This document shows positions 51,920-52,117 of a DNA stretch of 64,000 bases, piece after piece; positions within the stretch are counted from its first letter, which is position 1; each line of letters begins with the position of its first letter. Position numbers and translations under genes: made by a program. The stretch spans positions 1,302,001-1,366,000 of the forward strand of contig NZ_CP064786.1 of NCBI RefSeq assembly GCF_017094485.1, written 5' to 3'. Source of the DNA: Natranaeroarchaeum sulfidigenes. Lineage in GTDB: Archaea; Halobacteriota; Halobacteria; Halobacteriales; Natronoarchaeaceae. The notes under the pieces are model-generated. The model saw only the letters and a program-made list of their open reading frames with translations. It was not told where the DNA came from and ran no database searches.

Positions 51920-51951
51920 TAAAATCTGTTAGCGTCTAGTCTTCCGGGGGT

Positions 51952-51974
51952 CATAAAGGTCACGTACGCGCGCG
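51952..51974 (-). promoter_or_regulatory. gyrB TATA box with adjoining alternating purine-pyrimidine tract
   Basis: Minus-strand CCTTTATG (51952-51959) is the likely TATA. Directly upstream, 51961-51974 is a strictly alternating purine-pyrimidine stretch (CACGTACGCGCGCG on the plus strand). Such tracts can flip to Z-form under negative supercoiling. Confidence 0.5.
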
Positions 51975-52083
51975 AGCGCGTTCGGCCACAACACATTTAA
52001 GATGAGCTTACGTCAGGATGACGGTCCGGAATCGAGCGTTGCGAACCGACCCGGGAAGTTTCACTTTCACTCCGCCAACGAAT

Positions 52084-52094
52084 GGGTTTTATTG
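52084..52094 (+). promoter_or_regulatory. TATA box of top6B
   Basis: GGGTTTTATTG is centred about 29 nt upstream of the ATG at 52118, indicating a leaderless top6B-top6A message. Confidence 0.5.
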
Positions 52095-52117
52095 TCCCCA
52101 CTGCTAACCGTCCCGTA

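Follow-up and report, generated by a model that had tools for sequence, protein, structure and literature searches.

Genomic context of the gyrase and topoisomerase VI genes

The window analyzed here, meaning the whole stretch of 64 kb of DNA, is part of a single 3,041,127-base contig and contains the genes for both DNA gyrase and topoisomerase VI. Pfam matches confirmed the identities of gyrB, gyrA, top6B and top6A, and the relatives of the GyrB protein encoded in the window are haloarchaeal. The gyrase genes lie on the reverse strand, with gyrB at 50006–51919 and gyrA at 47533–50016, the start of gyrA overlapping the end of gyrB and its start codon being that listed by the open reading frame tool. 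The topoisomerase VI genes lie on the forward strand, with top6B at 52118–56290 and top6A at 56287–57378. These two gene pairs diverge from a 198-bp gap (51920–52117) bordered by the gyrB ATG at 51919 (reverse strand) and the top6B ATG at 52118 (forward strand), in agreement with the 198-bp divergent gyrase/topo VI intergenic region described in an earlier sequence-only reading of this DNA. The open frame of top6B also includes an intein, matched by Pfam Intein_splicing at approximately residues 129–677 (window positions ~52502–54148). PMC9348778 describes the gyrase and Topo VI genes of halophiles as contiguous and likely transcribed from divergent promoters, and proposes a need for coordination between the two activities.

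An alternating purine–pyrimidine tract upstream of gyrB

Within the gap we identified a 14-nt strictly alternating purine–pyrimidine run at 51961–51974 (reverse strand), which reads CGCGCGCGTACGTG on the gyrB strand and CACGTACGCGCGCG on the forward strand. This is the sole alternating run of at least 14 nt within the 64 kb, and the chance of such a run per 198 bp is 0.9% under a Markov model of the window and 1.2% under a Markov model of the gap. The order on the gyrB strand is CGCGCGTACGTG-ACC-TTTAT, leaving 3 bp between the end of the run and the TATA-like box TTTAT (51953–51957, reverse strand), which served as the alignment anchor and is conserved in 75 sequences. The sequence-only reading had described a 14-nt run adjoining the upstream side of the gyrB TATA box, and this proved true, with 3 bp between them. 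Alternation restarts for 6 nt past A51975, and the entire CG-rich element is therefore about 21 bp long (51961–51981, reverse strand; ACGCGCTCGCGCGCGTACGTG on the gyrB strand), with one in-phase imperfection, as seen from column counts in alignment A1; it scores 32.6 bits with model R1. The original observation is confirmed, and the feature is larger than first stated. Downstream, a CTA at +18 to +20 from the start of the TATA-like box (51937–51939, reverse strand) probably marks the −10 region, given column counts over 75 sequences that cover +18 and +19 (C in 61/75 and T in 73/75, respectively). The terms “TATA box” and “promoter” are applied to gyrB on the strength of its sequence.

Conservation of the tract among haloarchaea

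An order-wide sample was used because selection of relatives by similarity was to be avoided. It comprised 126 genomes at a completeness limit of 90%, all of which gave a GyrB match (126/126), and 125 of the upstream regions were readable, G044 being left out since its gyrB runs off the contig. In 120/125 genomes the segment from −85 to −25 of gyrB holds an alternating run of 10 nt or more, as compared with 8/125 for the control stretch at −150 to −90. These runs reach at least 12 nt in 98 and at least 14 nt in 61 of the 125 genomes, the longest being 23 nt, and when these 60 bp are shuffled, a run of 10 nt arises in 5.1% (mononucleotide) or 16.3% (dinucleotide) of cases. By genus medians, the run is found in 43/47 genera versus 4/47 for the control stretch. 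Conservation in relatives, a point raised by the sequence-only reading, is thereby established both across genomes and across genera. The position of the tract is likewise constant, as the run ends 40–44 nt upstream of the gyrB ATG in 108 of the 120 genomes that have it, and it is kept in 6/8 genomes with AT-rich flanks. The five genomes without a run are G092, G018, G016, G074 and G127, the last two of which have broken CG-rich tracts.

A second set of named genomes provided 80 GyrB loci, 77 of them haloarchaeal. In 74 of the named loci the match lies near the start and 110 bp or more of upstream sequence is present; 71 of these carry a run of at least 10 nt at −85 to −25 and three do not. 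Outside the order, 20 gyrB upstream regions from other families of the phylum, read from 68 genomes with a GyrB match, contained one run of 10 nt, composed of A/T only. A plasmid of Salinibaculum sp. KK48 (L269) carries a second, diverged gyrB, with ~70% identity to the gyrB of the window, that is without the tract.

Association of the tract with gyrB rather than top6B

The sequence-only reading had further proposed that the tract acts as a homeostatic sensor between gyrase and topo VI. To the contrary, among loci with ~3 kb upstream, the tract is found in 36/36 of those with no top6B nearby and in 33/36 of those with top6B nearby. In 35 named loci that were read for both genes (a pair count that leaves out L060), gyrB has a divergent top6B upstream, in 29 of them within 700 bp. 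In these same loci a run of at least 10 nt precedes top6B in 2/35 versus gyrB in 32/35; the top6B run at L079, with its gap of 114 bp, may simply be the tract of gyrB, and where the gap exceeds 200 bp a run precedes top6B in 1/24. For such a sensor the tract would be expected to be tied to the divergent arrangement or present at both promoters, and it is neither. Because the tract tracks gyrB and not the gyrB–top6B pair, a shared gyrase/topo VI sensor is unsupported.

The top6B promoters have a conserved element of their own, approximately TTCACTTTCACYCCGGTGGCGAACACCTTTTAA as judged by eye in the 35 named loci (52059–52093 in the window). In the window, this separate element consists in part of a TTTCACTTTCAC motif (52059–52070, forward strand), recognized from the 35 named loci and from genome pattern counts, and is followed by the TATA-like box TTTTATT of top6B (52087–52093, forward strand), with a similarly spaced TATA-like word in relatives. 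A GGTG..CACC dyad occurs in the top6B element of many relatives and is absent from the window copy, and TTTCACTTTCAC is present 5 times in its own genome versus 2 in the control.

Occurrence at other promoters

In the genome that contains the window, the next promoter-like model matches are at pcn (16 bits) and at a flavoprotein gene (14 bits), versus 32.6 bits at gyrB, and the match at the pcn promoter is retained in three genomes of the same family. Among pcn (PCNA) promoters of relatives (L132–L161), a CG-rich run of at least 10 nt lies upstream of the TATA box in 13/30, a frequency that exceeds chance and falls below that of gyrB. The feature is therefore not exclusive to gyrB. The pcn tract of the same genome is at L122 (C1:2939994–2940024), and the pcn promoter of L142 has an 18-nt palindrome-like tract. 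The flavoprotein gene, similar to fumarate reductase/succinate dehydrogenase, has a CGCGCGCACGCGCGTG tract directly before a TATA-like box (L131:2983–3007, equal to C1:2285982–2286006).

A run was found in 2/20 topA promoters of relatives and in 0/8 mcm promoters (of 20 loci), for which the starts are unreliable. Many of the topA promoters (L291–L308) carry CCCGAAAGGTTTA-like words, with a more usual-looking BRE and TATA box. A regulon of replication and topology genes was considered and is weakened by topA (2/20), with pcn remaining a candidate at 13/30. A general promoter feature was also considered and set aside, as 12-nt runs before TATA-like words in the same genome number 5 versus 4 for a reversed-pattern control. 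Several topA (G014, G016, G020) and mcm genes (several genomes) have long frames that carry split domain matches, which suggests inteins; the mcm of the genome containing the window, with a 1412-residue frame, has the same look.

Base sequence versus alternation

A model of base sequence alone was built from 62 elements, near relatives included, taken from named genomes that possibly overlap the 126-genome sample; the run counts in the 125 genomes are independent of this model. At E ≤ 0.005 it matched 94/126 genomes, and the best match of the genome lies upstream of gyrB in 93 of these 94, the 94th being G044, in which a contig end truncates gyrB. Of the 32 genomes that the model did not match, many bear other alternating sequences, up to 23 nt long. 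Away from gyrB, a search with strict filters that scored 54 candidates per genome gave four places at E ≤ 0.005 (G037, G056, G058 and G096) in genomes with a match, and the three of these that were inspected are coding in appearance; at E ≤ 1 there are many weak places among the matches listed. In an anchored analysis of 120 genomes, from which five genomes without a TATA-like word were left out, the steps at −14 to −8 before the TATA box alternate in 98–100% of genomes.

Substitutions in the core were counted in 122 genomes, G016, G018 and G092 being left out, a choice that favors the tract. Mismatches of the 10-nt core to the consensus CGCGCGTACG comprise 111 transitions and 9 transversions, with 64 of the 111 transitions at one position, the A/G of TRCG; relative to the commoner consensus CGCGCGTGCG there are 84 transitions and 13 transversions, and an 11-nt version of the core gives 92 and 28, with 117 versus 352 in the control, all of these being counts in which related genomes are not independent. 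Within genera, the core shows 91 transitions and 14 transversions at 3.9% divergence, as compared with 830 and 1559 at 33% divergence far upstream. Among genera within a family, the core shows 442 transitions and 226 transversions, and adjoining zones have 36–42% transitions. Positions −26 to −17, which form the left half of the element, gave 276 transitions and 296 transversions within genera, with no excess over neutral-like divergence, and a fixed 20-bp segment gave 50–53% transitions, like low-divergence upstream DNA (48 vs 44), so that it does not separate the tract. Only the register-corrected transition/transversion count of the core separates the tract from its surroundings, and the signature of alternation does not extend beyond the inner 10 bp, whose bases are conserved too. 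A CGCGCGTRCG core is found in 70/122 genomes, and the Z-unfavorable TA step is retained at 44/821 pyrimidine–purine steps, with CGCGCGTACG in 26/122 genomes. Dyad scores are slightly raised, averaging 5.57 versus 4.72 for an alternation-preserving null (above it in 92 and below it in 30 of the 122 genomes), and taken singly 7/122 tracts show dyad symmetry at p ≤ 0.05. The divergence pattern of the core fits selection on alternation, and its base conservation also fits a protein site.

Predicted Z-DNA propensity

Dinucleotide energies for the B–Z transition were the low-salt values of Table 1 in PMC3024258, combined with a torsional constant of 2220RT/N and a junction twist of 0.4 turn. The ranking of Z-prone sites covered 73 of the 80 named loci, leaving out three non-haloarchaeal loci, two late-starting matches and two with less than 150 bp upstream. 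The tract is the predicted top Z-prone site of its own locus in 65/73 and among the predicted top three in 73/73. With low-salt energies, the predicted B–Z threshold of the window tract is −0.0236, and the tract is second in Z propensity within the 64 kb, with four other sites sharing the rounded value. A predicted threshold of ≤ 0.0245 was obtained for 121/125 gyrB upstream segments versus 3/125 controls, and for 13/30 pcn segments versus 1/30 controls. On the same low-salt energies, the gyrB run is predicted to have sufficient length for a B–Z transition at moderate negative superhelicity. Molar salt eases this transition.

Responses to novobiocin

Plasmid-encoded gyrB is induced by novobiocin in Haloferax according to PMC9348778 and PMC8643681, strongly so in the former. 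PMC9348778 also describes, citing a primary paper, a joint rise of gyrase, Topo I and Topo VI under novobiocin in Halobacterium. In passages of that primary paper, gyrase genes were induced by novobiocin in Halobacterium R1, and those passages name gyrase and type I topoisomerases, without Topo VI. The bop gene under novobiocin is reported as inhibited in strain NRC-1 and raised 5-fold in R1. The sequence-only reading had likened the gyrB tract to the bop promoter; an alternating tract close to the TATA box is indeed a shared feature, but the analogy is uncertain because the sign of the bop response differs between NRC-1 and R1 and gyrB is reported to be induced. Among titles and abstract openings of mostly open literature, we found none describing such a conserved tract upstream of gyrB in haloarchaea, and one may be in print elsewhere.

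A candidate supercoiling-responsive element

The conserved, CG-rich tract adjoining the gyrB start signal suggests that gyrB may sense the twist made by gyrase. We tentatively favor, at somewhat less than even confidence, a gyrB-specific haloarchaeal promoter element that would couple gyrase expression to supercoiling through a B–Z switch over the BRE/TFB site. The tract would cover the BRE, just upstream of the TATA box; assuming a transcript start ~30 nt past the TATA box, this places it at approximately −34 to −54. Excess negative supercoiling by gyrase would flip the tract to Z-DNA, helped by molar KCl, and the Z-form tract would absorb local supercoils and deny TFB/TBP their site, so that transcription of gyrB–gyrA would drop. 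Relaxation, e.g. by novobiocin, would return the tract to B-DNA and allow gyrB to be transcribed. What we infer in this scheme is that Z-DNA forms in the cell and obstructs TFB/TBP, where the transcript starts, and in which direction the tract acts on expression. A more far-reaching form, possible and rather doubtful, is that the Z-prone tract, conserved order-wide and lying over the gyrB (and often the pcn) BRE, is a protein-free supercoiling gauge for the self-control of haloarchaeal gyrase, which would work because the cytoplasm holds molar KCl.

The B–Z switch is the best single mechanism, barely ahead of a sequence-specific protein site, itself a serious possibility short of being probable. 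Under the latter, a dedicated regulator, or a TFB paralogue reading an unusual BRE of approximately CGCGCGTRCGKGA, would bind the element, and any response to supercoiling would pass through the protein. The 3.9% divergence of the inner 10 bp within genera, the CGCGCGTRCG core in 70/122 genomes, the dyad score above its alternation-preserving null (5.57 vs 4.72) and the similar words upstream of the pcn TATA box (13/30), as a small regulon would show, are consistent with such a site. However, genomes without a model match differ in bases yet mostly keep alternation, individual dyad symmetry at p ≤ 0.05 is confined to 7/122 tracts, and the strict-filter search with 54 candidates per genome gave four off-gyrB places at E ≤ 0.005, three of which look coding.

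Two further explanations are much less probable. A homeostatic sensor serving both of the divergent promoters would accord with the divergent top6B upstream in 35 named loci and with the coordination proposed in PMC9348778, but it is improbable given a tract in 36/36 loci without top6B and 33/36 with it, its presence before top6B in 2/35 (1/24 at gaps over 200 bp) and the separate conserved element of top6B. Least probable of all, and very unlikely in our judgment, is a compositional by-product in which GC-rich DNA near the TATA box alternates by chance: although haloarchaeal genomes are GC- and CpG-rich and dinucleotide shuffles reach 10 nt in 16.3%, the run is found in 120/125 genomes versus 8/125 for the adjacent control, persists in 6/8 genomes with AT-rich flanks, and is not a common property of promoters (5 vs 4 for the control in the own-genome search; topA 2/20).

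The conserved gyrB cis element bears on how archaea with an acquired bacterial gyrase balance supercoiling, for which it offers a concrete test site in Haloferax or Halobacterium. It would also be a rare case in which sequence swaps could probe selection for Z-forming potential as opposed to a protein site.

Comparison with known systems

The archaeal BRE, the TFB recognition element, consists of the bases directly upstream of the TATA box. The gyrB tract occupies this same place; the gyrB element differs in its length of ~20 bp, its CG alternation and its link to gyrB, whereas topA of relatives has CGAAAG before TTTA. The RY box of the bop promoter sits at the TATA region. In Halobacterium this box is reportedly supercoiling-sensitive and associated with non-B DNA, a description attributed to Yang et al. 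in 1996. Both are haloarchaeal promoters with an alternating purine–pyrimidine tract near the TATA box, but bop is a different gene, and the gyrB tract lies upstream of the TATA box, over the BRE, and is order-wide. In bacteria, the determinants of gyrase promoters are around the −10 region and discriminator and act with sigma factors. The E. coli gyrA promoter, PgyrA, is reported to be stimulated by relaxation, and the likeness is that of a gyrase gene responding to relaxation. The haloarchaeal candidate differs from these bacterial determinants in that its alternating CG tract precedes a TATA box of the archaeal type.
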